Of a DNA stretch of 64,000 nt, positions 269-57,374 are shown one piece after another. The translations under genes were made by a program, and so were the position numbers. Below the pieces are notes generated by a model. The model searched no databases. It saw only the letters and a list, made by a program, of their open reading frames with translations, and was not told the origin of the DNA. The stretch lies in assembly GCA_008330645.1 (NCBI GenBank), contig VLTN01000038.1:124001-188000 (forward strand), in the 5' to 3' direction. The number at the start of each line of letters is the position of its first letter. Position 1 is the first letter of the stretch. The DNA comes from Cafeteria roenbergensis (lineage: Eukaryota > Sar > Bigyra > Bicosoecida > Cafeteriaceae).

Positions 269-3200
269 TCACAGCATGGCAGCGACCCTGGCCGCGTCGG
301 CCGGAGGCAGAGCCAATCCTTCCTTCGAGGCCAGGACGCGGAGCGCCTTGGCACGGTCCTGCACCTGACCGCTCCGCCCGCCGGACGACGAGGCTGCAGA
401 GCTGGCGTGCAGAGCCCATGCGACGTTGACGAGCAGAGCCGAAAAGCACGGCCGCACCAGCGGGTGCGCCTCCGCAAAGGACCGCCACTCCTCGGTTGAG
501 TCAAGGCCGGACGAAGTGGCTCTGCTGAGCGACGGAAGGATCGGGTCGTCCCCTGGGGGAGCATGGAACGCCAGTTCAACGGCTCTTTCGTACTGCTCCC
601 GCCCCACAGCGTCGACGACGTCCATGATACGAAGCAGCAGGCTGAGCGACGCCCGGCTCTGCCCGAAAGTCGCTCCGTAGGAGTCTCTCTCTCGCGTCAT
701 CGAAGTCCTCAGAGCGGCTGCTGCAGCGCTGGTGGCCGAGTCGGGCGGCAGAGCCACGGTGTTGACGAGAAGAGCAGCTCTGCCTCTAAGGGACTCCCGG
801 TGGGGCTGGTTGGGCCGCAGCAGTGACGCCAGCGACGACATCAGCAGCTCTGCCGCCGACGTCACAGAGTGACCCCGAGCGTGAAGGTCCACCGCCCTGT
901 CCACGAAACCGCGCGAAGTGCAATCGTGACCGGCGTCGCGGAGGCATGAGCAGAGCTCTCGCCACGCCTGCCCGTGGAGGACGCCACTCTCCACAAGATA
1001 CGGCGGCGAAACCGGGAGGAAGGATCCAGCGAGGCGGCGGGCAGAGGATCCTGCCACGCCTCCGGCGTCGCTCCCTGCCGACGTCAGCGAGCGGCCCCAC
1101 CCTGACAGGACGCTGATGGACGACTGAACGAGAGACGCGGCGTCGCTCCCGTCTCCGCCTTGGGAACCTCGCACGACGTCACCGGCCAGCGCGTCAGCTG
1201 ACACCTGCGCCGCCGACAGCATCGCACTCAGCAGACTGCGGCGGGACGGCGCATCCCTCGCGTGGACCAACATGCAGGGCAGAGCCGCACCGCACCTCGC
1301 CAGCTCTGCCAGGTCAGGGTGGTCTGCGGCAGAGCCCTGCCACCTAGGATCCTTCCCGGCAGAGCCCGCCGTGCTGCGTCCGGCTCCCGAGGGCGAGGTC
1401 AGCGGGATGCAGAGCCGCTGTGCTAGGTAGGCGGCCACCAGCCGACGGATGCAGAGCGAGTCACTGGTGTCGACGTCGCCTCGGCACGACGCGTCTTCCT
1501 GCAGAGCCATGTGGAAGGAGCCGACCCCTCCGGTAGAGCCATGTGGCCTGGCGGTTTCGGCGCCGCATTTGCTCCGGCGGACGAGTAGAGCCCCCGCTGC
1601 GTAGCGAGCGCCGCCGTCGGCGGCTCCGCCAGAGGACGCGGAGGGCCCCGAAGCGGACGTCGCTCCGCCAGTCACCGCCGTGTCAGCGCGCAGCATCAGT
1701 GCCGGGTCAGCCGTCCTGATGAGTCCAGCGTTGTAGAGCACCATTGCAATGTGCACCGCATCCTCTGCGTGCGAAACCGCGTTGAGTCGCTTTCCGTGCA
1801 GAGCCAGCACCGAAACCGCCCACTCGTATCGCTGCAGCAGAAGCAGCGTCGTGGCGAAAAAGTACGCGTCATCGTCGATCGTCTCCCCGGTAGAGCTCGA
1901 CATGCCGCCAACGTTGCCATCGACGTCGTCGTTGTCGTCGTCGTCCTCGAAATCGTCCTCCCAAACCTGGAACGTGTGGATATTTGCGGCGGTAAGCATT
2001 CGCAGGTCACACTCCACAACGACGGAGGGATCGCGCGAAACCGCGGCAGCAAGTGCTTTGGTTGCCGACACCGTCAGCAGCCGCCACAGCTCGTCGGAGC
2101 CCCGCGCAAACGGATCCACATCCGACCCACTTCGTGCGGTTTCACCGGCACCGCCCGACCCGTAGACGTCGGTGGCGTAGCCCCCTGCACCAGCACCAGC
2201 ACCAGCGCCGGCGCCGCCAGCACCGAGCTGGTAGCCGATGTGCGCCTGGGCGGTTTCGTCGTACTCGTCGTCCTCGTCCTCCGGGCCCCACTCCCACGTG
2301 GGCCTCACGGCTCCCAGCAGCCCCAGCACCGCCAGCCTGAAGGGGCAGTGGCTGTTCCGGCGCCTCCCGGCCGGAGCAGAGGCGTCGGCCTCCGCCGCGT
2401 GGCACATGCGCCGGGCAGCCGCAACCGCGCTGACGTCATCGGGGCTGGGCATGGACAGAGCGTACGTCGACGCGTGTCCGACTGCCAGACACGCCGAGGC
2501 CAGCTGCCTGGCAGAGCCGGCCACGGCGGCAGAGCCGGTCAGCCCTGCCGGCAGAGCGTCGCCTCGGCCGAAGCGGCCGCCGCGGCGGGCGTCTGCCAGT
2601 CGCTCCTGCTCGTGGGCATATTCCTGGAAAGTTCTCGCAGCGGTCAGCCAGCTGCCAGTGCGCATCAGGTAGAACACCGTTGGCCAGAGCAGCGGTTCGG
2701 CCGACGTCATCCGCGCGAAACCGCCCGACGCGGGCGCTGCGGCTGCTGTCCGCGCGTCGGTTGGCGGCGGCGTCTCGGCAGAGCTGTCGGCGTCGGACGC
2801 GTCGGCAGCCTGCTGCGAAGTGGGCGGGCCCCGGGGAAACCAGCTTCGCTCCATTGCAGCGACGAAGTGACGAACTTGCTCGTCCTTGGCAGAGCTGGCG
2901 CGACCACCCGACGCGAAACCGCTACTCCCGTCGACGTCCACCTGGAGCAGCGAAACCGCAACCCGGGTCGAGGCAAGGTCTGCCAGGAAGCGCACTCCTG
3001 CCACGAGAAGGCGTCTCTCAATTGCCAATCGCCGAGAGGAAGGATCGACGTCGGCCGACCATGACGATGCCCTCTCAGAGCTGGATCCCGCCGTCGAGGC
3101 CGTCGGCAGAGCTGCGTCGGCGTCCACCCCTCGCTCAAGATACGCGTCGTCGTCCGAAGACCACCACTCCGCAACCTCCTCGCCAGACTTTGGCAGGGGA

Positions 3201-4901
3201 AGGTTTGCCACGGCTCTGCCATCCGGCTCTGCCGGGACGTCGAACTGGCCGGTGAGCGATCGCAGAGCCATCGTGACGGCGTCCCAGGGGCCCATCAGCT
3301 TCTCCTGAGTCTGTTGCTGGCGGGACGGGTCAGAGGCCGCCGCCTCAGCGGCCGCTGCTGCAGCGTCTGCCGCGGCTTGCTGGGATGCCGACACGCCGCC
3401 CCTGGAAGGGCCATAGCCGTGGCCGTAGCCGTGCCGGCCGAACGATTCGCCGGCGGCACCTGCGCCAGCGGACGTGTTGAGCGCCGCTGCGGCCGCCGCT
3501 GCCGCCGCCTGCTTGGCTGACTGCGCGATGACAAGCCGCACTGCAACCCGCGGCAGCGACTCCGAGTGAGCGTCAGACGCCGCCGCAGCGGCAGCGGCAG
3601 CGGCAGCCGCAGCGGCTGAGGAGTCGTCGGCGTTACCCAGCAGACCCATGCCGCCCAACGACGCGCCAGTTGCAGTTGCAGTTGATGCATCAGGACGGAG
3701 CAGGGCTGCGAGCAGCCCTGTGATGGGGTGGGGAGGCGGGGTGAGCCCGTCACCGCCGCGTGCGAATGCGCCGATTGCGCGCACGAACGCCATCGTGACC
3801 GGGCCCTGACCTCCAGCGAAACTCCGCTCAATCAGGGGGGGCCCTCCTCCCGCAAGGGGCCTCCGCAGGCCCGAGGTCGCAATGATGGCGCCGGCATCAG
3901 AGGCGCCATGGCCCTCGTCGACGTCGTCGGCGTCTTGTTCCACCGACGCGGTGAACACGCCCAGTGCCTGCGAAACAGCAGACAGCAGTGACTCGAAGCA
4001 TCAGCGAGGAGACGCATCACCAGAGGCAGCTGCGATGGCAATTCCAACTGAGACACGACCATCGCCTGTATTCCACAACAACTGTACTTGTAGCCGTGTC
4101 AGTATACAAACGACTATCGATATCCGTATCAAAATCGGAATCAATATCGGTCGTTGATGCAACCGTATGATCGGCCCCAGAGCAGCCCCGCCGCCGCCCC
4201 AGCGCAGCCCCGCCCCGCCCCGCCCCGCCCCGCCCCGCGCGCACACACACGGGTCCGACACCAGTCACGACCCAGTCACACGCCAGTCTCACCGCCCTCA
4301 GGTCGTGCGCCGCTGTGTCGAGGTCCGCGTCGTGAAGCGCATCGATGGCCGCCTCGTACTCTGCGTGGGCGGTTACGCGGGCCTCAGTGACCGCGGCGCG
4401 GATGACGTCATTGTATGCCGACTCCATCATGGCGTCCACGTCGCCGTTGCTGGGAAGCGCCGAGTCCGGGCCGACGCCGTCGATGCCAGTGGCGCCACCG
4501 CCGGCGGCTCCGCCGGAGGTGCTGCCTCCGTGCATGGAAACGTCTTCGGCGTCCGCGGCCACGATGTTGTGAGCGACGTTGAGAGACTGCTGCAGCGTCT
4601 CCAAGCGGTTTCGCAAGAGTCGCTGTCTGCGGGCACTTGCCATGGCGGGGGTGGTGGGGGTGGGGAATGGTGGGGGGGGGGTGCAGCCTCGGCTAGGTCT
4701 GGGGCTGCGGATGCGGGCTGTGCGAGCCACGGCGCAGCGACGGCGCTGCAGTGGGCGCCACGAGTGTGGCAGGGGAACTCACGCCCGAGTGGCGCTGTGC
4801 GCGTCGTGGGTGGCGTCGGTGCCGATGCGGTCGGCCTCAAACACGCGCTGTGCTTCGACCCGCTGCGGTGTCGAGGGACGGGACCGCGGCACGATGGGCA
4901 T
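269..4901 (-). CDS. NUP93: NUP93/Nic96-type nucleoporin, three exons
   Basis: Scaffold nucleoporin of the inner ring of the nuclear pore. Proposed exons are 4901-4783, 4626-4293 and 3967-269 (1383 aa), joined by introns of 156 and 325 bp (GTGAGT...CCGCAG and GTGAGA...TCGCAG; phases 2 and 0). Family signals, in order: an N-terminal stretch reading EADRIGTDATHDAH, where NUP93 has its Gly-Leu/Ile-Asp helix; LLWPTVFYLMRTGSWLTAAR, matching the human WALIYYCMRCGDLLAAS segment; DDAYFFATTLLLLQRYEWAV plus AVHIAMVLYNAGLI, matching the FLTAQFEAAVAFL and VHVALVLFELKLL helices; and SLLLRIMDVVDAV near the C-terminus. Human NUP93 is 819 aa. The excess is Ala-, Gly- and Ser-rich inserts, including a poly-Ala block near 3590. 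The 5' end is uncertain: an acceptor-like CCGCAG at 4869-4864 could mean a further upstream exon, and an in-exon ATG at 4643 is an alternative start. Divergent from the gene at 5675. Confidence 0.85.
4202..4238. repeat. CCCCG pentanucleotide tract in NUP93 intron 2
   Basis: A short run of CCCCG/CCCGC units, followed by a CA dinucleotide run (about 4240-4249), lies inside the last NUP93 intron. It is simple sequence of no evident function. Confidence 0.7.
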
Positions 4902-5674: not shown

Positions 5675-7775
5675 ATGCGCGCCTTCCGGCAGCAGTCCGC
5701 CCCGGAAGAAGGCCAAGTTCGGCCCTCCCCTCGCCCCTCGCCCAGCGAAGGGGGCCGGGAGAGCGACCCGGGCCGCGCGCGCCAGGCGCGAAGCCTTGCA
5801 ACGGCGGTTCAATTGGCGCGTGACCCAACTGGGGAGTTCGAGCCAGCTGTCTACGCATCGCCCCCGAGACGCAAGCGCCCGCGCGACGCTGCTGACAGCG
5901 ATCGCGCCGATGCCACTCCGGAGCCAACCGACCCGGGGCCGGGGCGCGCTGTTCGGATGCGCACCTCAACCGGCGGCAGCAGCGCCAGCGGCCACCGCAC
6001 GGACGAGCCGCAACGCAGCCCAGCGCCCGCCAGCGCCGGCGCAGCGTTCCCGCGTGGCAGATCCGACTCGGCCGCGGCGGGCACTGCACGGGCGCAGCCA
6101 GCAACAGCCTCCAACAGCCAGCTCCGGGCATTTGCCCCGGCCGCCGCATCCGCATCCTCCGGCTCCGATATTGAGACTTCAGTGAATATTGGACCGTCCT
6201 CTGCCGCCCGAGCGTCGCCCGCATCGCCCCTTCCTTGCACATCTGCAGGGCCGGCCGCGGCGCCGCCAACCGCCCTCGCTGCCGCCACTGCTGCTGCCGC
6301 CACTGCTGCTGCCGCCACTGCTGCCGCCACTGCGCCCTCGGCCGCCGGCGCTCCTTCCCATGCGGCGTCAGCTGATCGCTCTCACGCCGCCCCCGCCAGC
6401 GTCATTGGCACCGGCAGCCCGTCCCGCCAGGCTGCAGCCGCAGCAATCCTCCGGGGATCTTGCCCCAGCCCAAGCCCGCCAGCTCTGCCAAAGGACGTGA
6501 AACCGCTGAGCTACGGCGGCTCTGCAGCCCCGACAGAGGACAGACCCTCAACCCCACCGTCCATTCCTGCCATCGAAACTGCAACTGCAACTGCAACTTC
6601 GGCTGCGGCTGCGGGGGCTGCGAAGGGCGGCGCCGGCGGAGAGTCGAGCGACAAGGCTGCCCCATCCAACGCCACCTCGTTCGGCAGAGCCACTACGCCC
6701 AGCCATCGCATCGCCGGGCACCGGCATGCGGCCGCTGGATCCGAGTCTCCCACTTCGCGTCGCTCTGCAGCGGCTCTGCTACTTCCGCCGCCGACGTCCA
6801 TCGGCACGGTAGAGCGCGAGGCCTCCTCAGCGCTCGCCAGCGCCGCGAGGACTGCGAGGCGACTGGCGGCTGACCAGGGGGTGATGGTACCGGCTCTCTC
6901 CGGCCCCGAGGCGACAGCGGCAGAGCTGTCGGTGTGGCGCGCTGCGCGGCAAGCGTCGGCCACAGCAGCGGCTGCGAGCCGCATTGAGAGACGCCGGGCT
7001 GAGGGGCCGTGGATGGGAGGTGATGGGGCGCTGACGGGGTCGGGACGCACGCCGCGCAATCGGTCGAACAGCTCCCGCCGCAGCGACAATGCCTCAATCG
7101 GATCTGCCTCTTGCGAAGTGGACGATTGGAAGGCGGGCGGGCGCAGCTTGCGGCTGATGCGCAAGCGACTGGCGAGTGAGGGGCAGGTGACCCGCCACGC
7201 CCTCAGGGCTGATGGCCGCGTATCCGCAGCTTCGTCAACTGCCCCGCACGGCCGGTCGTCAGAGGACGGGTCTGCGCGCGCAGGCGCGTCGCGGCAGAGC
7301 CACGAGCAGCACGGGGTCTCTCCGGTCGGGAGCGACACCGAGCGACTCCGCTCCGAGGCCATGCGACGTGCGTCTGACGGAGTCATCGCGTCGGCAGAGC
7401 TACTTCGCTGCAGGCACGAGGCTCTGCTCTGCTCCGGCCTGCCGTCGTCGGTGAACCAGCACACCGCCAGCGAGTGGGAAGGGGCCCTGTCAGCGGCCCA
7501 TCAGGGGGCCCCTGGACTATCCCGGTACATGGGAAAGAGCCGGTTCAAGCTGCTGCAGCGCCAGCTCAACGGCTGCCACGCATCGGGCACGCTTGTGGCG
7601 TCCCTCTTCAGCCCAATGTTTGCGGCGAGGGAAAGATATGTCGTCGCGCATGCGCCCAGATACGCCGACCGCCGTGCCGCAGCGATTGCCTCCATGATGC
7701 TGGGCGCGGCGCCGGCCCAGCAGCTGATTGCGCACCACATGGCTGCTCGGTCGAGCATCGCCCAACAGCCGAATT

Positions 7776-7777: not shown

Positions 7778-7837
<60 letters not shown>
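7778..7837 (+). repeat. (CAG)20 microsatellite directly after a stop codon
   Basis: Twenty perfect CAG triplets begin at the base after the TAG stop (7775-7777) of the upstream gene, in the same reading frame. The frame stays open past the repeat to about 7904. Confidence 0.97.
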
Positions 7838-7839
<2 letters not shown>

Positions 7840-8529: not shown

Positions 8530-11500
8530 TCACTGCAGGTCCGACGTGTCGCCCAGCACGGACGAGTCTCGTGAGAGCGCCGGCATCGCCCGCCAGCTCG
8601 AAAGCCCCAAGTGCGAGTCTTCCGCGCCGCCGTAATCGTGGTCCGTCGTTTGACGCGTTTCGCTGAGGCTGAGCGACGCGGGGGTGTCTGGCGGGGCCAT
8701 CGACACCGGGGCGGGCACTCTTGCGGCAGCAGCCTCCGAGCGGGCGGCCGTGCTTCTGGCGGCAGCGGCAACGCGCTGCCGGTCGCGTTGGGCCGACACA
8801 CGGCCCGGCTTGCGTGTCACGCCCGCAGAGTCATCGCTCCGGCGCGGCGCAGCTGCCACGCCCTGCGAGCCCGCAGCAGCCGACACGGGGACAACACCAA
8901 CACCAACAGCACTGGCACCGGCTCTGGCACCGGCTCCAGCACCAGCAGCCGAGGGCAGAGCCCTCAGCGGGCGGGCGCTGTAGCTGCCGACGTCTCTACC
9001 TCCAGATGGGCGCTGGCCACTCCCGGCGGGGGGCTGTGCTGCCCCGCCGCCGGCAGAGACCCCGGCGGCGCCATCGGTACCTCCACGCCCCGCGCCGCCA
9101 CGGCCGCCGCCGCTGCTGGCATTGACGCTGCCGCTGGTGCTAGCGCTGGCGCTGGTGCTGACGGCGGAGGCTGAAGGGCTTGAGGCGCGAACAACGCCTT
9201 GCAGCCGCCCCCCGTCGTCAGCTGATAGCGTTCGACGGGTGTCCCGTCCCTCGCTGGCTGCAGAGCTGGCGTCACCGCCGCGCGACCCCATCGTTGACCA
9301 GCTCAGCGGATACGACGGCGGGCCGCCGACACCGCCGCCGACGAAGCTGCCACCGACACCGCCACCGCCACTGCCGCCCACGAAACTGCCACCGACACCG
9401 CCGCCGCCACCGCCGCCGACGTCTGATAGCCTGGCGCCGCCATCGCCGCCGCGGCCTCCGCTAGCCGCGGCTCTGCCACTTCGCACTTCCATTCTATCCA
9501 GCAGGTATTGGAAGGCCGTCACCCACACTGCTCGCGCCTCCGCTGCCGCCGCCGCTGCGGCCGCCGCTGCCGCTGCCGCCTCCCGAGGTCCGGGCGATCG
9601 ACGAACGTGGATCTGCAAATCCAAAGTCATCTGGGTTGACACGATCGAGAAGCAAGCCTGATGGGGAGCTGACCGGCCGGATCCTTCCAGCAGAGCCGGC
9701 GTTTGCTTTCCTAGCACCACTGCCGTGATCGTCGCCGTGGAAATGCCCCCTATATGCTCTGCAGAGGCGGGGTTTCGCCAGAACAGCGTGGTCAAGTCCT
9801 CGGAGCACCAGATACACTGCGGCACGGGCTCGCTGACCGCCGCCGCTGCGCCGGACCCGCCGCCGAAACCGCCGCCGAAACCGTCGGACTCGCCTCCGGC
9901 GTGCGCGTCGGCGGATGCCGCGCCAAAGTGACCGCTGGATCGATCCCGACGGGCTCTGCTGGCAGAGCTGGCGCCAGGCGAAGACAGTGACGACACGGGC
10001 TCAACAAAGCCGCCAGCGGGTTCGCAGTACCCGGACCGCGGCGAACCCGCCATCGAACTGCTCCGGCCGGCTCTGCCGGCAGTGCGCTCACTTCGCGCGT
10101 CGCTCGTTCTCCGCACTGGCTCTGCTGAGCGTCTCGCCACCGGGCCGCTGTGTCGGAGAAACACTGCTCCGTGAGTCAGCAACCCCCGGAGCGCCAGCGC
10201 GGAGATTGGCACGGGTGACGTCAACGGACTGGTCCGAGGTGAAACCGCCGAGCTTGACGCGCTGGAAGGATCCGGGACACTGCTGAGTGGCTCGGAATCG
10301 GCTCGACTGCTTGACTCGCGAGTGACCGCGTGCCTGCCGCCGAGGTCAGACCCGCCGTCGAGACGGTGGTGGTGGATACCACCATCATGCGACGCGACTT
10401 GAACTTCTGGTCGCGGGGTCTGACCCTGCCTGCCCGCTCGATCGGAGAAACGATCTGCCGAAACCGGACCGCCGCTGGCTCCAGCGCCCGCCACGCCTCC
10501 CGGCTCTGCCGACGTCGCCGCTTCGGATGACACTCCGCCGAGCGACACCTTGACCACGGTGGGTTCGACTAGCGCCTGACCACTGGATGACCGAGCAGTG
10601 ACTCCCTGCTGATGCCGGCTGATAGCACCCCCTGCCTCCGCCCTTCCCTTGGCACTGCGCGAAACCGCTCCTCTCCGCCCAGGCTCTGCCCTGCGGCTTC
10701 TCACTTCGTCTCCTTTTTCCTGCGTTGGCGGGGGCGGTGCCGGCAGAGCCGGCATCGGGGAGTCACTGGGGCGCTCGCTGCTCCCGGCAGCTGCCGCCAG
10801 CGCGCGAAGCCTGGGGTTGATGGCCGACGCGTGACGCTGCCGAGAGCCAGCGCCGCTGGATACGCCCGCACCGGGCTCTGCAGGCGCTGCCTCCGCCGCC
10901 ACCGCCTCCGCAGCCGCCGCCGCCCCCTCAGCCGCCTCGCCGCGGACGAGCGACGGCTGGATGTCTGGAGCGCCGCGCCCTGTGGCTGCGGGGCGGCGGC
11001 CAGCGGTTTCGCCACCAGAGTGAGGACCTTGCCCCAGGTTGGGGTTTCGCGAGATGGGCCATGCCTGCGGCGGGGGTTGCTGCGCGTGCGGAGTATCGGC
11101 TGGCATCACCAGCCCGTCATAGCCATCGGAGGGAGTCTCTGAACCCGGCTCGGCTGCTGACGTCGAGGCAGTGGCAAGCTTCGGCCGGCTTCGCGGCGAG
11201 AGCTCGCCGTCCCTGGCCTGCGAGTCGTGTCTCGTCCGTGGCCCAGCGGTGAAACGTTGTGCCGATGGGCCAGTCGAACGAGTCACAGCACCGCTGGGCA
11301 CAGGGGCCTTTGTGGCAGCGGCTGTGGCAGCGGCTGTGGCAGCGGCTGTGGCAGCGGCTGTGGCAGCGGCTGTGGCAGCGGCTGTGGCGGCCGATGACGA
11401 ATGCTGTGTTCCAGCCCCGGCCTGGCCGGCCAGTCGCGGGGTCTTTGGAGCGACGTTCATCGCTCGTTCCAGGGCACCGTCACGAAGAGTCGCCTCAAGC

Positions 11501-17392: not shown

Positions 17393-17620
17393 CACTGGTC
17401 CAGGCGGCTCGCGAGCCGCTGCGGAGTGGGCGCGCCACGACGCCACTGTTCCCGCTTTGTTGAAGGAAGCCGCGACACATTATTGCAGCCCGCGCAAGCA
17501 TTCCCGCGACAGCTCTGCACCGTCCGCGCTTTTGCGGCACCCAAGCGCTGCGCCGGCGGCCAGGAGCCGTATCACCCGCGCCGCAGCTGGCCGGGCCTGT
17601 GGGGCGGCTCGTGCGGAGCA

Positions 17621-44439: not shown

Positions 44440-46497
44440 CTACGCCTCGTCTGTCCAGGTGAGCCCGCAAGCCTCGCAAACGCACCGTCGCCGCGTGCCA
44501 TCGCCGCCTGTGCCCCCGCCGCCCCAGATCTCCGCCTTTCGGATGTCCCGCTGCGACGAAACGTCCTTGGCGAGCACGTTGTTGCTTCCGCACGACGGGC
44601 ACGGCATGCCGGCGCGCGTGGCGTCGCTCATGGGGTCAAACGGCACTGCGGCCGCTGCGCGCATTGCCTCGCGCTCTTGCCGTACGACGGCAGACGCTAG
44701 CTGGTCGACCGGCATGCCAGCCAGCTCCGCGGCGCTCAGCGTGCCCGCTAGTAGCGCCTGTCGAAGCGACGCCCCGTCCGCTCTCCGTAGCGCCGCCACC
44801 GTTGCGATCACACGCGGGCCGTAGTCCCGGCCCAATCCGGGGCCGGCGCCGCCGGCAGCGTCACTGGCAGCGCCGCCGGCAGCGTCACTGGCAGCGCCGC
44901 CGGCAGCGTCACTGGCAGCGCCACCGGCAGCGCCGCCGACAGCGTCACCCTCCTGCTCGGCCGGCCGCGGGCGCTTCGACGGGCGGCCGCTGTCACTGCA
45001 TTGAGCATCCCCGCCGCCGCCGCCACCGCCACCGCCAGCACCGTGGGATTCTGCAGCCGGCGCGGCGTCAGACCCGCTGCAGGCATCGAACAGGGCTTGC
45101 TCAATCGCAACCCCCAGCGAAACCGCTCGATCAGCGTCAAAGCCTCTGCCGCCGCCACCACCGCCACCTCCACTGTCACCACCGTCGGCTCTGCCGGTGG
45201 ATCCTACCCCGCTGCCGACGTCAACCTCCTGCAGCAGAGCCGCAGCAAGACGACGCGAAACCGCGTCCCTTCCAGCAGAGCCTGTTGCCAGCGGTCCAAG
45301 CTCAACGTCCTCATGCGAAACCGCACGAAGTGCCGAGAGCGACGCTGCCTGCAATCGCGCGTGTTCACCGCGAGCCGCGGTCCGGGCGGCAGCCGCCTCC
45401 GCCTCGGCCTGACTGGCTGCCTCCTCCCTGGCCGCCGCTGCGGCCGCTGCTGCTGCGGCGGCGGCCGCTACTGCTGCTGCAGCGGCGGCGGAAGCGCGTG
45501 CCTCCTGCGCAGCCCAGCGCATAAGGGGCGTGGCCCCAGCCGCAGCAGCGGCAGCGGCAGCGGCAGCGGCAGCGGCGGCTGAGGTGTGGCCAGTCCTGGC
45601 CTGAGCCCGCTGTCGTTTCGCCGCCCGGCGCGCTGCCAGCGTGCGCGCCAGCTGACCCAGCGCCCCCGCCACAACGAGCGACCCTCGGCGCGAAACCGCG
45701 CGATCGGATGTGCCTGCAGCGGACGGGACGCGCCGGGAGGGACCACCATCTGGCAGAGCCGCCCATGAAACCGCGGCCCTTGCCCCAGCAGACAGGCTGA
45801 CGGGGGCGCGAGCTGCCGCCGTCTGAGGCGACGGCACGACCAGTGCCGACGCGGCGGCGGGGGCGGCGGGGGCGGCAGCGGCGCGGGCGGCAGCGGCAGC
45901 TGCATCAGCGGCGGGGCCGCGGCCGGACGGCGCCTGCGCGGGGCTGGCGCTGGGGACGCGTCTGGCACGAGACGACGCCGAGTCTGCCGTGGCCGCTCCC
46001 GTCGCCGGCGGTGGCGAGGCCGGTGGCGGCGCCTGCGTTGAGCGCAGCTGCGAGGCTGGCGACTGCTCTGCTTGGTCGATCGCCTCCAATTCGGCCTGAA
46101 TCTCGCGGGCTAGCGTCCGCCGCAACTGCGCGTGGCGGAAGAGGACAAGCCACGGAGAGTGGGAAGGGGGGGTGCTGGGGGCGGAATTCAGGCAGCGGCC
46201 TGCTGAAGCACTCGCAACGCTTTCCAAATGCAGTCAGCAGCACAAGAACACAAGGCCGGCGCCACGGCTCACGGCCTCGACGACGCGCGCCTGCCTGTTG
46301 AAGACCTGGCGGTTCAGAACCTTCCACTCGCTGCGGGAGCCGGCCGCCTTGGAGGAGTTGGCGTGGATGAGGCAGAGAGCAAACGCGTTCCACCGAATCG
46401 CGGCCGGCTGAGCCTTGCACTGGTCGCACAGCCGCGACGAGCCGCTCGGAGGGCCCACACGGCGAGGCTCCCTGAAGCGGGGCTGGCCACGCTGCAT
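44440..46497 (-). CDS. TFIIS-like protein with divergent zinc ribbon, two exons
   Basis: Related to transcript-cleavage factor TFIIS of RNA polymerase II. Exon 1 is 46497-46273 and exon 2 is 46125-44440 (636 aa); the intron is 147 bp, phase 0 (GTGAGC...GCGCAG). Exon 1 has a possible zinc site, CDQC...CLIH (C-x2-C-x14-C-x2-H). Exon 2 opens with a helical segment and then about 380 Ala-rich residues. The C-terminus carries a TFIIS central domain (YGPRVIATVAALRRADGASL, LLAGTLSAAELAGMPVDQLA) and a CPSC...CEAC zinc ribbon. The ribbon lacks the RSADEPMT acidic hairpin, whose Asp-Glu pair drives RNA cleavage in TFIIS, so catalytic stimulation is doubtful. Human TFIIS is about 300 aa. A link to TCEANC-like paralogues is possible. 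It is divergent from VPS25, 235 bp away. Confidence 0.75.
44848..44943. repeat. 24-bp tandem repeat in TFIIS-like gene
   Basis: About four tandem copies of a 24-bp unit (GCCGCCGGCAGCGTCACTGG) encode repeated Gly-Gly-Ala-Ala-Ser-Asp-Ala-Ala on the minus strand, just before the central domain. Confidence 0.9.
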
Positions 46498-48012: not shown

Positions 48013-48619
48013 ACGTTGGGTGTTGCTGACGTTCCAGGCGCCTCTGCAAGCCCGCCTGGCTCGCGCTCACCAATGGCCCCGCGCGCTTTTGACTCAACAT
48101 CAAGCCAGCGCGTGGCTGCGAAAAGAGCCGCCACAGCTGGGGGGCTGGCTGCCTGAGAGATTTGCAACGCACGCCACAGCCCCGAGCATACGAGCAAGCA
48201 CCAGCAAATGCGCACGAAAAACGCCGGGAATGCCCCAGAAAAGCCCTTTGGGCCGGCCCCCTTGACTTTGCGCCAGGGCGAAGGACACCAAGTGCCACGC
48301 GAGTTTCGCCTCTTCCCATCGCGCAGCGTGAATCTGCCCTCGCGAGCGCGGCTCCTTGCGCTCCTGCGCGGCAGCCTGGCGCTGCCCCCGTACCTGCCTA
48401 GAGATGCAAGTCGACTCGCAATGGCGGCGGATCACGGAATCTCGCGCCCGATGGCGCGACTGGGGCGACGGCGGCGCCGGGCAGAGCCCCGGTCCGTGAC
48501 GAGCTTCCACGTCACGATGTACGCACGCGCACATCGCGGCCGGCCCTAGGAGTCGTGCCAGCCCATCGCCCTGCGGCCTGCAGTGTCCCGCTCGCGACCC
48601 ACCCTCACCTGGTGCTGGA
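48013..48619. other. Intergenic region between VPS25 and the YdcZ-type gene
   Basis: Plus-strand genes flank it. It should contain the promoter of the transporter gene and perhaps an unseen first exon, because an acceptor-like TGCAG lies at 48642-48646 within the assigned start region. Nothing else is recognised. Confidence 0.4.
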
Positions 48620-49816
48620 ATGTCGTCCCACTCTGTCTTGGTGCAGGCCACAGCCGCGCTGCTGGCAGCCTTCGCGGGCGCCGCTGCAACAACGGCCGCC
48701 GGGCTTGACGGCGCCCTCGCCCGCGAGAGCCTGGCCGGTGTAGGAATCTACGGAGCATTTGCCGACTTCGTTGGGGCGGTGGTGGCCTCCGGGATCATCG
48801 CTGGGCTGGTAGCGCTTTGGCAGCGCGCCAACAAGCAGCAGCCAGCAGAGGCCAGTGCCGCCGAAGTCCCCTCGTCAGACGACGAGCCCCAGCAGTCCGG
48901 CCCGCTGTGGCAGTACTGCGGCGGCGTGTGCGGGGCGATTTACGTGTCGTGCGCCGTGCTCGGCTCGCCCCTCGGCGGCTTCTCTGTGCTGTTTGCCGCG
49001 GCCGTGGCAGGGCAGCTCGTTGTTGGCGCAATTCTCGACTGCTTCTTCGCCGTGGGCGGCGCCCAGTCGCGCATCGACACTTGGAAGATCGGCGCACTTG
49101 CCGTCACCGTGCTGGGCGCGATCCTCAGCGCCGTGGGCGCCCTGCTGTCCGACGACGGCACGATCACCGCCGCAAACGCAGCCATCGGGGCCGTCCTCGG
49201 CCTCGTCGCAGGCACCGCCGTTGCGCTCCAAACTGTCGCAAACACGCGCCTGGCCGAGCGCCTGAACTCGTCTGCGACGGTAACCTTCTTCTCCATCAGC
49301 CTTGGCTTCGTCATCACTCTCATCGTCTGCATCATCGTCACGTTTGCGACGGAGGGTGGTGCAGCCGCCACCGTGGAGCAGATTGACGCGTCGCGCTCCA
49401 GCCCCGCCCTCTGGCTCGGCGGCATCGGCTCCGTGTGCGCCGTGTCGGCAGGAGCCACGCTTCCCCCCTTCGTCGGCGTCGCGGGCTTCAGCGTCGCGCT
49501 GGTCGCGGGTCAGCTCGCGACCAGCCTCGGCCTCGACGCGGGCGGCGTTCTTGGCGGATCGGGCAGCGTGGACGCCTGGCGCATCGTTGGTGCCGTCATC
49601 GTTTTCGTCGGCGCGGCCTGCGCGCAGACCTCAAACCCATTCGCGGGCAATGCCGCGGCCAGTGGTGTGCAGTCCGACCCCAAGCGCGATGGCGGCATCC
49701 CCGGCCACGACGTGATCGATTTTGCGCCGGCCAGCGACTCCTCTGACATTGTGCTCGCCAGCGCATCGTCGCCTGCGTCCGGCAAGAATCAGGGCCCCGT
49801 TGCGGCGGAGCCATAG
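48620..49816 (+). CDS. Duplicated YdcZ-family (DMT) membrane transporter
   Basis: A multi-pass membrane protein of 398 aa made of two YdcZ/DUF606-like units of the drug/metabolite transporter superfamily. Unit 1 spans about residues 1-150 (GVGIYGAFADFVGAVVASGI, then LWQYCGGVCGAIYVSCAVLG, LGGFSVLFAAAVAGQLVVGA). Unit 2 spans about 160-345 (GAVLGLVAGTAVALQTVANT, SSATVTFFSISLGFVITLIV, LWLGGIGSVCAVSAGATLPP, GVAGFSVALVAGQLATSLGL). About ten TM helices are expected. Bacterial YdcZ proteins are usually single units of about 150 aa. The cytosolic tail is polar. No intron is seen and the exonic words are nearly absent. Substrate unknown; bacterial ancestry is plausible but not shown by composition. The start could move if an upstream exon joins at 48647. 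Confidence 0.78.
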   Translation: MSSHSVLVQATAALLAAFAGAAATTAAGLDGALARESLAGVGIYGAFADFVGAVVASGIIAGLVALWQRANKQQPAEASAAEVPSSDDEPQQSGPLWQYCGGVCGAIYVSCAVLGSPLGGFSVLFAAAVAGQLVVGAILDCFFAVGGAQSRIDTWKIGALAVTVLGAILSAVGALLSDDGTITAANAAIGAVLGLVAGTAVALQTVANTRLAERLNSSATVTFFSISLGFVITLIVCIIVTFATEGGAAATVEQIDASRSSPALWLGGIGSVCAVSAGATLPPFVGVAGFSVALVAGQLATSLGLDAGGVLGGSGSVDAWRIVGAVIVFVGAACAQTSNPFAGNAAASGVQSDPKRDGGIPGHDVIDFAPASDSSDIVLASASSPASGKNQGPVAAEP

Positions 49817-50266: not shown

Positions 50267-50283
50267 TCAGCCCGTGACATCGT
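50189..50283. repeat. 42-bp tandem repeat at the VPS41 3' end
   Basis: Two full 42-bp units (50189-50230 and 50231-50272, starting TGTTTGCGGTCGAGGCGC after a GTGACATC or GATGACATC lead) and the start of a third. The VPS41 stop codon (50269-50267) lies inside the second unit. Confidence 0.9.
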
Positions 50284-53200
50284 TTCGGCACACAACCACC
50301 AGCGCTCGCGCGCGGCTTCCGCCGCCACCCGTCGACCCGACGCCCGTCATCACCGAGGCCGACCCGGCGCCCCCGCCAACGCCACCCCCACCGAACACGC
50401 TTGAGCTCATGCTGTCGGCTCTGCCGCGGCGGTGTCCCTGCGTGCCCCCCCCCCACTCTGACACCGACCCTCTGCGCGATCGCCTCTCGCCGAAGCCGCT
50501 CATGGAGCTGTCGGCCCTGCTCCGGCCCCCGCCCGACCACCCCGCGCCTCCGCTTGCACCGGCAGCGGCTCTGCCCCGGCGGTTTCGCCTGGAATACTGG
50601 CGATGCGCGTCCCTTGAGAAGCAAACCACGATCGGAGCACACTTTGACGAAGCAGCTCTGCCTGCAGAGCCCATACGGGCGCTGGACATGACGGACATTG
50701 CATCGGCGGCACCTCCCCCCACGCCGCCGCCAGCACGGCCGTCGTGATCCAGCCCTCCGCCCGGCGTCGCCGGCTGCTGATGCAGAGCGAGGTGCGGCAA
50801 CGCAGCCGCCGCCCGAGCAACGTCAAACGCCACTCCGGGAACGCCCTCCGGCGGTTTCACCACCTCTGTGGCCAGTGCCATCATGGCCCTGCTTCGAACC
50901 GCAACGGCTCTCGCAGCCCTGCTCGCTGACGCGGCAAGGCGCCGATTGCCGCTGCGCCGGCGTCCTTCACCGCCGGCAGAGCCACTTTCACTACCGGAGT
51001 CGCTCGCACCGGCAGAGCCGGACTCCAGCCCAGTGTCCAAGTCGTCAACGACGTCGACGTCGACGTCGACGTCGCTCTCCCCCGAGGCAGCGGCACCGCC
51101 AGCCGGCAGAGCCCCGAAGTGGGCACCCGGCTCTGCCCTCCCCGACATGGCGGCCTCTGCCCGCGGAGTCACTCGCCGAACGGTGGCGGCCAGCGCATCA
51201 AGCGCGGGGCCCCTGCGAATCACCCGCTGGTCAGTCGCCACCCAGCCCGGGACCCATGGGGACGGCAGCCCCCGGATCGACGGGAGCCATGCTGGGCGCG
51301 TCGCTGCTGGGAGCAACGGCCCGGCGGGGCCCCCCGACAGGGCCCCCCCTCCTCGCGTGGTCGCTGCCGCGTGCACGCTTCCGCGTGATGCCGCAGTGAT
51401 GCCAAAGTCGTCTGGCAGAGCTCTCGATCCTTCCCCGACAACCGGCTCTCCGGTCACTTCGTCCTTGGCGGACGCGGAGACCAACACCCCCGCCTCAGCG
51501 GCGCGAACGAACCGGTCGAATAGCGCGGCGGTATCTGCGCCGAGGATTCCCCGGGCGTCCGTCGCGCGGTTTCGCAGGGCCGTCTCTTGCTTGATCAGCC
51601 CGACGAGCGATGGGCCGAGCCGGCCAAGCCGCATGTCCTCCGGAAGGGTCTCGATAAGGCGACCGAGCTCTGCGTCAAGCGTGGACGATGCGCCGGCTCT
51701 CTGGAGGAGTTGCTCCGTCAGCTCTGCCGACGTCGAGCATCGATCCACGAGTCGCCTCCAGAGCTCTGCATTCCCAGTGACCTCGACCAGCGAAACCGCT
51801 GCGCCAACGTCGCACAGGTGAACGAGCAACTCCTCCAGGGCCTCGTCGAAGCGGCCCAAGCTCGCAAGCCAGGCAGACGACGCCGTGACGGCACCTCGCT
51901 CGGCGGCGCTGCGGAGGGCGTCGATGGCCCGCGAATCACTGCGGCCAAGAGCGGTCGTACCGGCAGCACCGGCAGCACCGGCAGCACCGGCAGCACCGGC
52001 AGCACCAGCACCACCACCACCAGCACCAGCACCACCAGCACCAGCAGCACCACCAGCAGCACCACCAACAGCGCGCGACTGTTGCGCGGCCGCTGCCGAC
52101 GGAGCGGCCATCAGCCAAGCATCAAGATCGCCCTCGTCCAGCGCCTCCAGGACTGACGCAACTGCAGCCAGCCCGAGCAGCGGCTGGCTCGACGTTGCGG
52201 CACGCGAAACCGCGGGAAGTGAGGCCGTGTCCAGCCACGTTGCGAGGAGCACGTGGGCGTCGTGGACCGTGATCCTGGTTGGCCGGTCCTGATGCTCCGC
52301 TGATGGTCCCGTGATGGAAGCATCGACCCCTAGCTCCAGGCCGCACGGCGCAGAGCCCAGAGAGTGGTACACGCGCGGTTTCACGTCTGCAAGGCGGCTG
52401 AGACACCGCATGCAAGTGATCGCTGCGCTGACCCGTGGCCAGGACCGCGACTGACCCACGAGCGACCAGCGTCGCTCAGCAGAGCTCATTGGCACGGCCG
52501 ACGCGGATGGAAGGGTCGGAGCGGCTTCGCGGGCGCGGCCAGTGTGAGCCTCCAGCGATGGTTCCGAGTCGTCACTGTCCAAGGCCAGCCTGACTGGCGG
52601 GAGACACATGACTGACTCCGGGGTGACAGGTCCCTCTGCGTCCGTGACGGGGTGAAACTCGCCGCTGGGGCCCTCCCACGCGAAGCCGCGCGAAGCGAGC
52701 AACAGCGCCCGAATCACCGGAAGGATCCGTGACGCCCTCGTGCCGGCTCTGTCCACGGCCAGCCTCACAGCTCTGCCGGGGTGCAGCTCTGCCAGCCGTG
52801 CGATGAAGCAGGGGAGGTCAGCGACGATCTCGTGCTCTGAGGCGAGGGCAAACGCTGTCGATTGCACCATCGCGATGGCGTCTGACGTCTGTCGCGGGGT
52901 CAGACCCTGCAGCCGTTGCCCATCAACCTGCCCCGAGTTTGCGCCGCTGCCGCCCACAGTGGCAGTACCAGCAGCAGCACCGCCAACGCCACCGCCACCG
53001 CCACCGCCAACGCCGCCACCACCGCCACCAACAGCGACAGCGACATCAGTGGCCCCGTCTGAGCTTGCAGAGCTTCTCCCATGAAGTGGGTCACGGCTCT
53101 GCCGGATAAGCTCTGCCGTGCGGAGAACAACGTTGAGCGCTGCCACAGCGTCACCCATGCCTGCCAAGACGGCCGCCAGTGCGGAGCGGATGCGGAGTAG

Positions 53201-56200
53201 CTGCAGAGCCGTTGGCGGCGTTGCTGCGTCTTGGGGCCCTTCGCCGGCGGCGACAGCTCCCGAGCCGGCATCCGTGTCTGCGTCGGCTGCGGTTTCGGCG
53301 CCGCCCACGCCACGCTCGCCAGCAGCAACGGCCAAGACTGACGCAGCGTCGCTCAGCCGATACAGCGGCTCCAAAACGGCTCCACCGGCTGAGCCACCCT
53401 CCTTGAGTGACTTGTCGGAGTCACTCGCCTTGCCACTCTTTCCGGGGACGGTCATGAGCACAGCATCCATCACTTCGCCATCGTCGCCATCGGGTTCGGC
53501 CCCTGCCGCATCAGCAGCCGGTGGTGAGCCTTGTTCAGAGCGGGACGAAGTGCCACCGGCAGAGCCCCATACCACAACAGCTCTGCTCAGTGCGTCCCAC
53601 GCACTTCGCTGCACTAGCGCCCTGAGAACTGCCCCGTACACCGAGGGCTCAGGGCAGAGCCCAGAGAAGTGCGTTGGCAGAGCCGCTGCAAGCGCCTCAA
53701 CGCCGGCTTTGCCGGAGGGGCCGTCCGCGATGACGCGGGCCCAGTGTGACCAGCTCGCGATTGCTTCCTGACACACGCTTGACTCGCTACCTGTCAGACG
53801 CGACAGGGCCCCTGGCAGGGCCCACGCGAGAAACCTCACTGCTGCGACCGGCCCGTCAGCTGACAGCACAGACTGCGTTTGGCGATCGACCAAGGAGCGG
53901 TACTCCGGCCCCGAGAGTCGGGGTGACGCAACCGCGCGGTTTCGCGCAGCGACAGCAGCTCTGCCAGAAAGGTCGAGCTCTGCCTGCCACAGGAGCAGCA
54001 GTTGCGCTGCGTCGCTTGACGACACAGTCGCGATGGGGTCAGACCCCGCCGCTGTAGAGGCGGCGGAAACGCCTGTCTCTCCCGGGCCCGCGGCAACGGA
54101 ACTCGGAACTCTAACGGCTTCAAGTGCTGAAGCTGAAGCTGAAGCTGAAGTTGAAGTTGAAGTTGCAGAGCGTGAAGACAATGCGGAGCTCAGCGACTGC
54201 ACGCAGTCACGCGCCAGTCTGTACCTGGTCATGGCGGCGTCAAAATCCAATCGCTCCTGTGCCGCTGAAACGGCCAAACCACGTGCCAGCTCCACCGCCT
54301 CCGTCAGCCGTCCGGCTCTGCCGGCCACCCACTTCACGTGGTCGACCGGTGAGAACGGCACCAGCACCCTTGCGCCTGCCGGCGAAGATACGACCAACCA
54401 CGGGAGACCATCACTCCCGGGCGAGAGGCGCCTGGCGTCGCAAGAGAGCCGGTACCCGCTGGGGACCTCCGGGGAACCGCTGCTGCCGCCGGCAGCGGGA
54501 GCTCTGCACGGCAGAGCCACTTCCTCACACCAAAGCTCCTCGGGAGTCGCTTCTCGGGAGAGGATGTGGAGCTGGGGCCAGGCGGTTTCACCGGTGGAGT
54601 CAGAGCCTCGCGGGTCAGCGGCGGTGGCGTCGGTGGTCAGCACGGCCACGAGAGTCGGGCCGTACGGGGCCACCCCAACGATGCGTCTGCCCTCCAGCAC
54701 GACCCGGCAGAGCCGCGAAACAGCGCGGGGTGGGGCTGGGCGCTGGGCAGCCGCCGGCCTGGGGGCCTCCGTGGTCGGTTGGGCAGGCAGGGCCAGGGCT
54801 GGCGCCGCCGACGTCGGGTCGGCGCAATGTTTCCCCGACTGCTGTGGAGGGGCCGTAGGGCTGAGGCTGCCCACCAGCGGTTTCACTGGAGATGCAGTTC
54901 CGTCCGAAGTTGCCCGGCTCTGCCTGCCACTCTTGCAGTCTTGTGACTGGCTCGTGATGGTGTACAGCGACAGGGTGCTGCTCCACCCGACAATGAGGCA
55001 GCTGTCACCGTCCAACGCAATCGATGGGGTCGCTGGCCCAGCACTGGTAGTGCCATCAGGAGGGTACACGACGTGGATCTTGCGGTGACCCGCGAGTGAC
55101 TCCCCCCTTCCGTCGGCGAAACCGCTTTGCAAGGCCCCGCCCCGATGTGGCGTCTCCGCCGCATGCGGTGGGAATCCACCCGTCGCCGCAGCGTGACCTG
55201 AACGTGATGCAGGCGATGATTGACCCGCGATGGGGTCCCTGTCATGCCCGACTCCGCCGTCAATCATGCTTCCATCAGCTGACTTTACCGTCTCCATTGT
55301 GCTTGCACTGCTGGCTCGTTCCATCACCGGCCAATCAGGCCCGCCTGCTGAGTGACTCCGCAACGTCTCCATCGAAGTGGCTCTGCCGTCCCCGGACAGC
55401 AAGTAGAGCTCCACCTGCTCTGTGAATGCCGCAGCAATGAGAGACGCGGAGTCACTCCAGACGACGTCGACCAACCGCCCGTACCGCGTGCTGTTGAGCC
55501 GAATAGGCGGCCAGGACGCCGCCGCAGCCGCACCAGCAGCAGCCGAACCTGCAACAGCCGACGCCGCCCCCGGAAGCGTTCCGATTGCCGCAGCAGCTGC
55601 CGCCGCCGCCGCTGCAGCTGTGGCCATTCTGCCAGTCGTCGACGACGTCGCAGCTGACGCTGACTGCTCGCTGGCACCGCCTAGACCGGAGACGAAGTGG
55701 GTGGCAGAGCTCGAAGTGAAGTGTCGCCCGGATGACGCCGACACCTGCATGCGCGCCGATTTGGAGGGGTCCGCGGTTTCGGCCGACTTGGCTCTGCCGG
55801 CTCTGCCGACCACACGAAGTGCTCGGCCCGCCGCGCAGTCGTCCGTTTGACCCCATGACATCCGAGAGACGCGGCGTCGCTCAGCTGCAGTTCCTCCGGC
55901 AGAAACCGTTGGTCGTGAAGGCATCAACGTCAGCCACTCTCCGTCGATCGCAGTCACCACAGCGTGGCGCAGCTGACGCGGGTGCGACTCGGGAGCGGTT
56001 TCACCAAAGTCACTCGAGTGGCGGTCGCCGAACGGAAGCGGCGTAGCGATGTCAGACTCAACTGATGACGCGCCTGTGACACCTCTCTGATGGGCTCCTG
56101 ATGGCTTGAGGGGGGACGGTGCGCCGGCCCTGGCCAAGCCGGCAGCTCCAGCCGCAACCACGGAAGCAGCTCCGGGCTGACCTGTCTCTGACTGGCCAGC

Positions 56201-57374
56201 GACTCCCTCAGACGCGACTCGTTCGCCGCCTGCGCGCTCCGACGTCCCAGCGGTTTCACCGCTGTCGGCGCCGTCGGATGCGCCGCGCAGTCTCAGTGGC
56301 CCGTCGCCAAGACGGCCAGCCGTGGCTGAAGGCGACGCTGATGTTGAGGTGACCGCCCTGCCGTGACGGGGGCCGTGCAGCTGTGGCTTCGGCCTGGGAG
56401 CATCCAGGTCCGGGCCAAAGTCGGGGTGCAGCGCCACTGCAACCACGGGGGCCCTGATGCGGAGGGGGGGCGGAGGCGGACACGACCCGGACAGGGAGTT
56501 GACCCGCGTGATGCCGGCGAGACTGCCTGAGACAACGGTGTCGCCGTCGTCGGCTACGACCAGACTGGTGACTGGCGCGCCCTCGTGCAGGCCCCGAGCG
56601 ACGACGCGTCGCTCGCCGCTCCACGAGTATGCCCCCACCGAGCCGTCCTGAAACCCCGCCACCTGCGAGAGCTCGCTTGCAAAGACACAGACGCGCGCGC
56701 AGCCTGAAGGTAGAGGGGCGGCTCGGCCTCCGGAATATTTGGCACCGTGCAAGCATGTCGACCACACGCTCAAGGCGTGTGGCGGGCTTGCGCCCGCGCG
56801 GGCGCGAGGGAACGCCGTCAGAAGGGGGCTAGGGCGGTGACGCCCGCGGGTGAGGGGCTGGCCCAGGGCACTGGCCAGCTGCGCGCGCCGCTGTCTGGGC
56901 CGTTGCGGCGCGGCTTGGGGCGGGAGGGGCCACTGAACGCTGCGCGCGGCGGCGCGGTGCAACGCTGAGGCCCAAGGGAGCCCCCACCCTCCCCGGCCAT
57001 GGAATAAAGCACGGCTTGGGCACCGGTGCAAAGCCAAAGGGGAGAGGGAGCGCGCGAAAGACACAGGCTGGGGTGCGGATTTCGCTGGAAGCCGAGCCAT
57101 CTGGCGCTGCACGCCACCACGGGACCGCTTCAAGCTGCGCACGGGCCGTGCCGCGCATGAATGGGCGCAGGAAGGCTCTCACGATGAGGCTTGGGTGGAT
57201 GGCGATGCTACAGAGGCCGCTAGCGGCGGAGTCGGCAGCGAACTGCCCGCCGACGGCGTGCTGGTTGAACATCGGCTCGTCCTCATCGTCGTCCGGTGGC
57301 AGTGGTGCCACCGCGACGAGCGGGGATTCCGCCGAGGCGGGTGGCACTTGCGGTCCTACGGGGACGGCGGCCAT
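50267..57374 (-). CDS. VPS41: VPS41 homologue, greatly enlarged, two exons
   Basis: A HOPS tethering-complex subunit for fusion with lysosomes or vacuoles. Exon 1 is 57374-57183 (64 aa) and exon 2 is 56662-50267; the 520-bp intron is phase 0 (GTGAGA...TCGCAG). The product is 2195 aa (human 854). Exon 1 has the typical acidic start (PPDDDEDEP) and ends GLCSIAIHPSLI, joining VAGFQDGSVGAYSW. This matches human ASCMTVHDKFLALGTHYGKVYLLD. Propeller matches: PPLRIRAPVVAVALHPDFG, GDSCLIVGWSSTLSLYTI. SPVDHVKWVAGRAGRLTEAV aligns with human DHIDWLLEKKKYEEAL. The C-terminal clathrin-repeat segment ASLGRFDEALEELLVHLCDV then NAELWRRLVDRCS aligns with human MGNSRSALKMIMEELHDV and DGELWEDLILYS. I find no C-terminal RING-H2 cysteine/histidine set; about 450 disordered residues end the protein instead. 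Long Ser/Ala inserts separate the blocks. Confidence 0.9.
51958..52070. repeat. GCACCG/CACCAG tandem tract (Gly-Ala) in VPS41
   Basis: A run of GGCAGCACC and ACCACCAGC units encodes a Gly/Ala-rich spacer on the minus strand, between helical blocks of VPS41. Confidence 0.85.

Follow-up and report, generated by a model that had tools for sequence, protein, structure and literature searches.

A class of genes in the nuclear, GC-rich genome of a marine protist that is probably the bicosoecid stramenopile Cafeteria burkhardae carries in its coding DNA a vocabulary of exact DNA words of 7-10 bases at 5- to 31-fold above expectation. We describe this vocabulary from a window of 64,000 nucleotides (contig C38, positions 124001-188000) and from further loci of the same assembly, a single genome of 36,303,456 bases in 167 contigs that may be incomplete. 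The words occupy coding sequence regardless of strand and frame, taking up 12% of that of NUP93 and about a tenth of some coding sequences, and we know of no mechanism that accounts for their excess beyond proteins and codon usage. Among the candidate roles we favor that of a target for a protein acting at the level of DNA. The genome of Cafeteria roenbergensis strain BVI, now C. burkhardae, has been reported to comprise 170 contigs and 36,327,047 bp with 70.1% GC (PMC6972860).

Word excess beyond protein and codon usage

There are six core words in the vocabulary, namely A ([AGT]GCAGAGC[CT]), B ([ACG][CT]GAAACCGC), C (GGAAGGATC[CG]), D (GAGCGACG, with variants including GAGAGACGC), E (CGAAGTG) and F (TCAGCTGA), joined by G (CGACGTC), K (ACCGGCTCT) and a few weaker words. 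It was derived from 11 stretches of rich coding DNA, in the window and a second locus (L020), by iterative discovery after masking of tandem repeats, along with an analysis of flanks that also took in one stretch of locus L011. TCAGCTGA is palindromic and CGACGTC contains GACGTC; the main words, GCAGAGC and YGAAACCGC, are non-palindromic. Words can abut, as four different ones do end to end at 512-542 of the window, and the composite GAAACCGC-N-CGAAGTG is found 13 times in the genome as against none for its reversed control, i.e. the same pattern read backwards, which served as the control for all genome-wide counts.

Coding DNA was called by a simple seven-state gene model, which is crude and works without transcript evidence, and the basic expectations come from shuffles that preserve each protein and the codon usage of each gene. 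Against 100 such shuffles, the 44,781 bp of coding DNA in the window contain 163 copies of GCAGAGC where 29.1 are expected (standard deviation 5.3, maximum 42), 71 of GGCAGAGCC (4.3 expected), 56 of GAAACCGC (4.5), 27 of GCGAAACCGC (1.0), 10 of GGAAGGATCC (0.1; three of the ten lie inside one 24-bp tandem repeat), four of GTCAGCTGAC (0.3) and four of GGGTCTGACC (0.2). The original prediction, a reading of the window from its letters, had counted by eye about 25 GCAGAGC and 10 GAAACCGC cores in the large exon of NUP93; the actual numbers are 27 and 10, and the excess it reported is real and exceeds what it had described. It had also placed the words in both orientations and all frames, and GCAGAGC, GGCAGAGCC and GAAACCGC are indeed above expectation in all six classes of frame and orientation. 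Selection on protein, which it had thought unlikely, is not the explanation, since the excess persists with protein and codon usage fixed.

A stricter null, which preserves the dinucleotides at codon junctions as well but not codon pairs, was applied to 17 rich coding stretches from six loci (64,467 bp). Under it all six core words remain in excess: A 281 vs 28.6, B 105 vs 8.7, C 21 vs 0.8, D 56 vs 11.5, E 44 vs 15.1 and F 20 vs 3.6. As the rich set of genes was defined in part via the density of A and B, the fair figures for these two are those from the window, from unselected loci and from the whole genome. Genome-wide, GGCAGAGCCGC occurs 2364 times (reversed control 175), GCGAAACCGC 2499 times (249) and GGAAGGATCC 293 times (6). 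In 20 further loci of 10 kb each, the coding DNA (141,417 bp) holds 125 GCAGAGC (62.6 expected), 34 GGCAGAGCC (7.8) and 17 GAAACCGC (4.8), and in raw counts over these loci L020 provides 19 of the 52 GGCAGAGCC and nine of the 17 GAAACCGC. Just one of these 20 unselected loci (L020) matches the density of the window, which is therefore not general to the genome.

The vocabulary, derived for the most part from the window and a second locus, was then confronted with four 10-kb loci from other regions, each picked for containing a B-A word pair and thus slightly biased for A and B. In their 29,799 bp of coding DNA (six open frames, 200 shuffles) we found A 126 vs 11.3, B 44 vs 2.9, C 5 vs 0.2, D 22 vs 4.2, E 16 vs 5.0, F 10 vs 1.3, G 58 vs 15.3, H (AACTGCAAC) 16 vs 0.4, I (GAGAGACGC) 3 vs 0.6, K 11 vs 0.9 and CCATCA 40 vs 19.3. 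These 11 of 12 words replicate, the count of each being reached by none of the 200 shuffles; J (AGTGACTCC) failed to do so (1 vs 0.3). H, 35 of whose 42 copies belong to a Thr-Ala hexamer repeat, is not counted as a core word. ACTGCA hexamer repeats encoding Thr-Ala runs are common in rich genes (e.g. window 36883-36913), and the vocabulary stays enriched once tandem repeats are masked.

Exactness, strand symmetry and origin of the words

In the pooled rich coding DNA, exact GCAGAGC is enriched 6.6-fold and all its one-mismatch forms together 0.80-fold; the corresponding values are 12.4- and 0.85-fold for GAAACCGC and 8.7- and 1.00-fold for TCAGCTGA. Across the genome, the three variants of GCGAAACCGC at position 4 sum to 764 as against 1746 for their own reversed control, alongside 2499 copies of the exact word. 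Decaying relics would leave one-mismatch forms behind, and as none is enriched for the two main words, these look to be currently maintained.

The words are equally at home on both strands of the genes. Sense and antisense copies of A number 64 vs 5.4 and 91 vs 7.0 (12- and 13-fold), and those of B 29 vs 1.4 and 32 vs 1.3 (21- and 25-fold); the held-out loci give 57 vs 5.2 and 69 vs 6.1 for A and 14 vs 0.9 and 30 vs 2.0 for B. The flanks follow suit: of the copies of GAAACCGC, all 43 in sense and 64 of the 66 in antisense have a pyrimidine in front of them, and the preferences around GCAGAGC mirror each other on the two gene strands in the same way. The same flank preferences on either strand, together with the exactness, favor recognition as duplex DNA. 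Among distances between words, the sole spacing signal is an excess of pairs 10-30 bp apart (84 vs 47). Local hairpins were considered and rejected, with A word/anti-word pairs contributing at most three cases each among the 40 commonest fixed-offset pair classes listed.

This symmetry bears on the possibility that the words are a signal in the mature mRNA, suppressing or enhancing splicing in long exons, aiding export or pairing word with anti-word in cis or trans. Such a signal would suit the near-restriction of most words to coding DNA and the very long exons of the rich genes. Exonic splicing enhancers bind splicing activators on RNA and are hence expected to be strand-specific. Set against such enhancers (PMC7275064), the present words lack strand-specificity, both orientations being equally enriched with mirrored flanks, which weakens the splicing or export role initially suggested for them. 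Moreover, the split of word A between sense and antisense fits random orientation from gene to gene (χ-squared 17.7, 16 degrees of freedom, p=0.34), so that a balanced pairing in cis within an mRNA is not indicated; pairing in trans between mRNAs is compatible with it. On balance, we regard an RNA-level signal as unlikely.

The origin of the words can be traced through conserved domains, for which we used the cores of A-F in the seven coding stretches of the window with Pfam matches. Inside the Pfam domains (3,330 bp, with one low-complexity insert left out) there are 28 cores where 4.0 are expected (7.0-fold; 32 vs 4.9 with the insert kept), and outside them (16,911 bp) there are 146 vs 21.3 (6.9-fold). 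The 28 include 14 in NUP93, eight in CFAP91 and two in the kinesin motor, one of the latter in the stretch SYLEVYN. Because the conserved domains are as enriched as the remainder, the words arose through substitution rather than insertion. Nor did we find them to be pieces of a longer dispersed or tandem unit, or inserts, given that the excess survives tandem masking and is equal inside domains.

These observations also make it very unlikely indeed that the words are a neutral by-product, whether of bias in codons or dinucleotides, of tandem repeats, of an inserted mobile element or of misassembly. It is true that some copies lie in tandem repeats (18632-18708, 43103-43142) and that the nulls applied do not preserve codon pairs. 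The excess, however, survives the codon-usage null, the junction null and tandem masking; one-mismatch forms of nearly equal composition are not enriched; and words sit within conserved domains without any insertion.

Word-rich genes and the near-restriction to coding DNA

Genes fall into two classes, word-rich and word-poor. When 80 coding stretches of at least 600 bp are ranked by excess, the top 11 show an approximately 6- to 10-fold excess, and every one of them lies in the window or in L020. The genes that had been listed as dense, namely NUP93, 5829-7774, the kinesin, TRMO, 34107-38411, CFAP91, the TFIIS-like gene and 50270-56677, all proved rich, and the acyl-CoA synthetase exon at 25533-27027, absent from that list, is rich too. 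Those listed as sparse (the surface protein, VPS25, the YdcZ-type and the armadillo genes) are poor, although short ones such as YdcZ say little. In poor loci, too, the genes are mildly enriched (A 49 vs 19.9, B 5 vs 1.9). Accordingly, the proposed signal of long exons holds in that short words occupy long coding exons, but it is a property of one class of genes in some regions, and within the window itself neither the armadillo exon (3.4 kb) nor the surface protein gene has it.

Regionally, one of 23 unselected 10-kb loci is rich (L020), and L033-L035, from smaller contigs, are not; a rough extrapolation from the density of B in the window would make about 15% of the genome window-like. Nine of the 14 copies of GGAAGGATCC on contig C12 fall within 74-165 kb, and contigs C1-C20 hold 86 of its 293 copies (126.7 expected). 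B-A pairs are similarly scarce on the 20 largest contigs, at 14 of 67 against 29.0 expected (p=0.0002, an optimistic value as matches cluster). The lower number of word-rich sites on the largest contigs hints at a compartment that assembles less well. Such clustering, and the under-representation of B-A pairs, could mean that the rich regions descend from a hybridizing lineage or an older state of the genome in which the vocabulary was general. We consider this history very improbable, as rich and poor genes adjoin, the main words lack the one-mismatch forms that decay would leave and thus point to current maintenance, and the question would merely shift to another genome.

Several other correlates of richness were examined. 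The GC content at third codon positions (GC3) outside words is 0.726 in rich genes and 0.822 in others; low GC3 as the cause was rejected, with 14 low-GC3 genes from outside the rich regions giving A 9 vs 4.6 and B 1 vs 0.5. Gene function was likewise rejected, there being no visible split by Pfam between the sampled rich and poor genes; outside the window, the majority of rich genes lack a Pfam match. The share of sequence in tandem repeats is 6.9% in the rich and 3.9% in the other loci. Other regional vocabularies did not emerge from discovery run separately on 21 loci: this vocabulary or the GCAGAGC word came up in the window, L016, L019, L020, L021 and L025, and the remaining loci gave low-count or repeat-like words only. 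In L030, an adenylosuccinate lyase gene with few words (8183-9748) adjoins a word-rich reading frame of 6.5 kb.

Within the six rich loci, coding DNA (78,363 bp) contains A 274, B 103, C 19, D 54, E 37 and F 19 times, and in-frame extensions of the coding calls (14,981 bp) contain A 19, B 10, C 2, D 4, E 8 and F 2 times. Strict non-coding DNA (20,656 bp), a class from which all such extensions are kept out, has A 21, B 2, C 0, D 0, E 1 and F 0, where a third-order Markov model expects 4.3, 0.5, 0.1, 1.7, 2.5 and 0.5, respectively. Thus, B-F are nearly confined to coding DNA and A is partly found outside it as well. The earlier claim was that the words are sparse or absent in introns; what the counts show is a near-absence of B-F, though not of A, from non-coding DNA as a whole.

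The same counts bear on molecular drive, by which the words would bias gene conversion (or DNA uptake or recombination) toward themselves and accumulate where the protein tolerates them. Drive would explain the occurrence in both orientations and all frames, the origin by substitution, a scaled strength of about 1 to 4 and the enrichment of A outside coding DNA. Nevertheless, we think it rather unlikely. It should act on non-coding DNA, where C-F are at or below chance and B stands at 2 vs 0.5; the near-restriction of most words to coding DNA thus speaks against simple drive by conversion or uptake. Drive on uptake sequences yields graded enrichment of mismatched forms, going by the account in PMC1939737, and the two main words here show none. 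The lower GC3 of rich genes outside words is, furthermore, the opposite of what strong GC-biased conversion would give. A recombination motif, one of the roles originally suggested, or a gene-conversion motif is weakened by the near-absence of most words from non-coding DNA of the same loci.

Candidate readers of the words and known systems

From sequence we tentatively propose, as a possibility short of probable, that one class of genes carries exact words as weakly selected sites for one or more sequence-specific DNA-binding proteins acting on long gene bodies. Each word would be recognized as double-stranded DNA by one such protein or a small set of them. Weak selection would keep the words; gauged from the logarithm of observed over expected counts, its scaled strength would be about 1 to 4, and ln(obs/exp) ranges from about 1.2 (E) up to 4 (C), which suits weak selection. 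The role might be one in chromatin, with the words keeping long gene bodies of a particular genome compartment transcriptionally proper; by analogy with the PATCs of C. elegans, conceivable routes are licensing against silencing or a block on cryptic initiation (PMC7725773), and both are guesses. A more far-reaching version, which we find doubtful if possible, is that a eukaryotic nuclear genome superimposes a second, sequence-exact code of several DNA words on the protein code of a defined class of genes. This code would be read as duplex DNA and kept at synonymous sites, and would mark the bodies of these genes for the transcription or chromatin machinery.

Several observations weigh against the proposal of weakly selected protein-binding sites. 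Not all words are strictly exact: near forms are mildly enriched for GGAAGGATC (exact 31.5-fold, one-mismatch 1.80-fold) and GAGCGACG (5.1- and 1.28-fold). No helical period of about 10 bp or nucleosomal period is seen among word distances, and long exons without words occur beside rich genes. Word A is enriched in the non-coding DNA of rich loci (21 vs 4.3; a single 13-bp tandem array accounts for four of the 21 copies). The strict non-coding class was itself drawn after a first pass in which 12,872 bp called non-coding held A 18, B 9, C 1, D 4, E 8 and F 2 times; those words are there because the gene model missed parts of open frames, chiefly the 6.5-kb frame in L030. Intron-like sequence in the rich loci amounts to only 979 bp with one word, and untranslated regions are pooled with other non-coding DNA, so that the restriction to 'coding' DNA may in fact be one to 'transcribed' DNA.

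Two other suggestions for the role of the words, as small-RNA targets or as DNA-modification targets, were addressed by searching the assembly for the enzymes, with the kinesin domain, which gave 88 matches here, as positive control. There is no match in the assembly to the Piwi domain (the control search matched one of 14 genomes) or to a C5 DNA methylase (10 of 14), making Argonaute RNA targeting and 5-methylcytosine less likely. The small-RNA role is weakened by the former, and of the modification role the part concerning C5 methylation by the latter. For adenine methylation the search covered the MT-A70 family, which matched in no control genome, so that its outcome carries no information. 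If the words were targets of an enzyme that modifies DNA, they would find a counterpart in HIP1, which is linked to DNA methyltransferases in cyanobacteria. In our judgment, exact and partly degenerate words do look like methyltransferase sites, and GCAGAGC, GAAACCGC and GAGCGACG have adenines on one strand only. With no C5 DNA methylase matched in the assembly, we hold such targets to be quite improbable. As a separate matter, Argonaute-based RNA interference and 5-methylcytosine may be missing from this protist.

That eukaryotes have over-represented words is not in itself new: over-represented oligonucleotides have been described in C. elegans, Drosophila and human, along with graded mismatched forms (PMC1939737). 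Of the prokaryotic cases, HIP1 and the alternate HIPs are short GC-rich cyanobacterial words far above expectation, and a paper title cited in the same source has HIP1 propagating via nucleotide substitutions (PMC4390886). The words described here resemble them as over-represented words of octamer scale; however, HIPs are presented there as prokaryotic palindromes tied to methyltransferases (PMC4390886), whereas the present case is a eukaryote with several different words, which are mostly non-palindromic and for the greater part nearly confined to the coding DNA of one gene class. The uptake sequences of Neisseriaceae and Pasteurellaceae, of 9-10 bp, lack orientation bias and have a proposed origin by point mutation (PMC1939737). 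Our words share the lack of bias relative to genes, but uptake sequences are described as commoner than expected in non-coding DNA, which here is true of word A alone, and as having graded mismatched forms (PMC1939737), to be compared with 0.80- and 0.85-fold for the main words here and 1.80- and 1.28-fold for GGAAGGATC and GAGCGACG.

Going by their name, PATCs have a helical phasing of A/T clusters, unlike the words, the distances among which show no phase of about 10 bp. According to PMC7725773, PATCs are a feature of particular genes able to prevent silencing in repressive chromatin, and are non-coding A/T clusters used in introns, in contrast to the exact GC-rich exon words described here. 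Each of these four known kinds (HIP1, uptake sequences, PATCs and splicing enhancers) thus differs from the words in at least one tested defining feature.

We know of no precedent for an exact, multi-word and strand-symmetric vocabulary nearly confined to the coding DNA of one gene class, and it is in this sense of lacking a known precedent that we call the pattern new; the mechanism is a proposal only. A literature search returned nothing on both GGCAGAGCC and GCGAAACCGC and, among the titles listed, no such vocabulary in Cafeteria or another protist, which is no proof of its being unpublished. The usual explanations of synonymous sites are expression-linked codon choice, base composition and splicing. 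If the pattern were to hold in all strains, it would expose an unknown DNA-reading system in a eukaryote and permit the sorting of genes into two classes from sequence alone. It also serves as a warning that codon usage and the ratio of nonsynonymous to synonymous substitution (dN/dS) are not neutral yardsticks in word-rich genes.

The genes and composite sites of the window are collected in Table 1. The name VPS41, given previously to 50270-56677, was not confirmed, there being no match in Pfam or PDB sequence searches.

Table 1. Word-rich genes, contrast genes and composite sites of the window (positions within the window; counts given as observed vs expected where an expectation is stated)
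Feature	Position	Strand	Evidence and words
NUP93/Nic96 large exon	272..4000	-	PF04097, E 2.3e-13; 27 GCAGAGC, 10 GAAACCGC, 4 GGAAGGATC, 5 GAGCGACG, 5 CGAAGTG
Four words end to end (GATCCTTCC, CGTCGCTC, GCAGAGC, CACTTCG)	512..542	-	sequence
Uncharacterised long exon, rich	5829..7774	+	no Pfam; 10 GCAGAGC, 1 GAAACCGC cores; 13 vs 1.3
Kinesin, rich	8533..15231	-	PF00225, E 1.3e-86; 35 GCAGAGC, 6 GAAACCGC; 2 cores within motor matches
TRMO-like gene, rich	17554..19543	+	PF01980, E 4.9e-28; 3 of 4 GGAAGGATC in 24-bp tandem repeat 18632-18708
Acyl-CoA synthetase (AMP-binding) exon, rich	25533..27027	+	PF00501; 8 vs 0.7
'Surface protein' (name from the original prediction), contrast	28469..31936	-	0 GCAGAGC, 0 GAAACCGC cores in 3.5 kb
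Uncharacterised long exon, rich	34107..38411	-	no Pfam; 14 GCAGAGC, 9 GAAACCGC cores
Composite GAAACCGC-N-CGAAGTG	37626..37641	+	further copies 905-920, 2128-2143, 45317-45332
CFAP91, rich	40444..42828	-	PF14738, E 2.2e-38; 12 GCAGAGC, 3 GAAACCGC; 8 cores in conserved domain
TFIIS-like gene, rich	44443..46146	-	PF07500, E 9.3e-7; 5 GCAGAGC, 5 GAAACCGC cores
YdcZ-type transporter, contrast	48614..49813	+	PF04657; 0 counted words; short, 0.2 expected, so says little
Long exon (VPS41 of the original prediction; name not confirmed), rich	50270..56677	-	37 GCAGAGC, 14 GAAACCGC; 66 vs 6.5
Armadillo-repeat gene, contrast, 3.4-kb exon	57400..60796	+	PDB sequence matches to armadillo proteins; 1 vs 1.2

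The window also holds several tandem arrays. Within the 'surface protein' gene, which is lower in GC, 28830-29536 is a 24-bp array of 29 copies that encodes a Ser/Pro-rich stretch, and the long gene on the reverse strand carries a 42-bp repeat in 2.2 near-identical copies at its 3' end (50191-50283). A 57-bp array of 29 copies with 93% match occupies 62335-64000 and reaches the end of the window.

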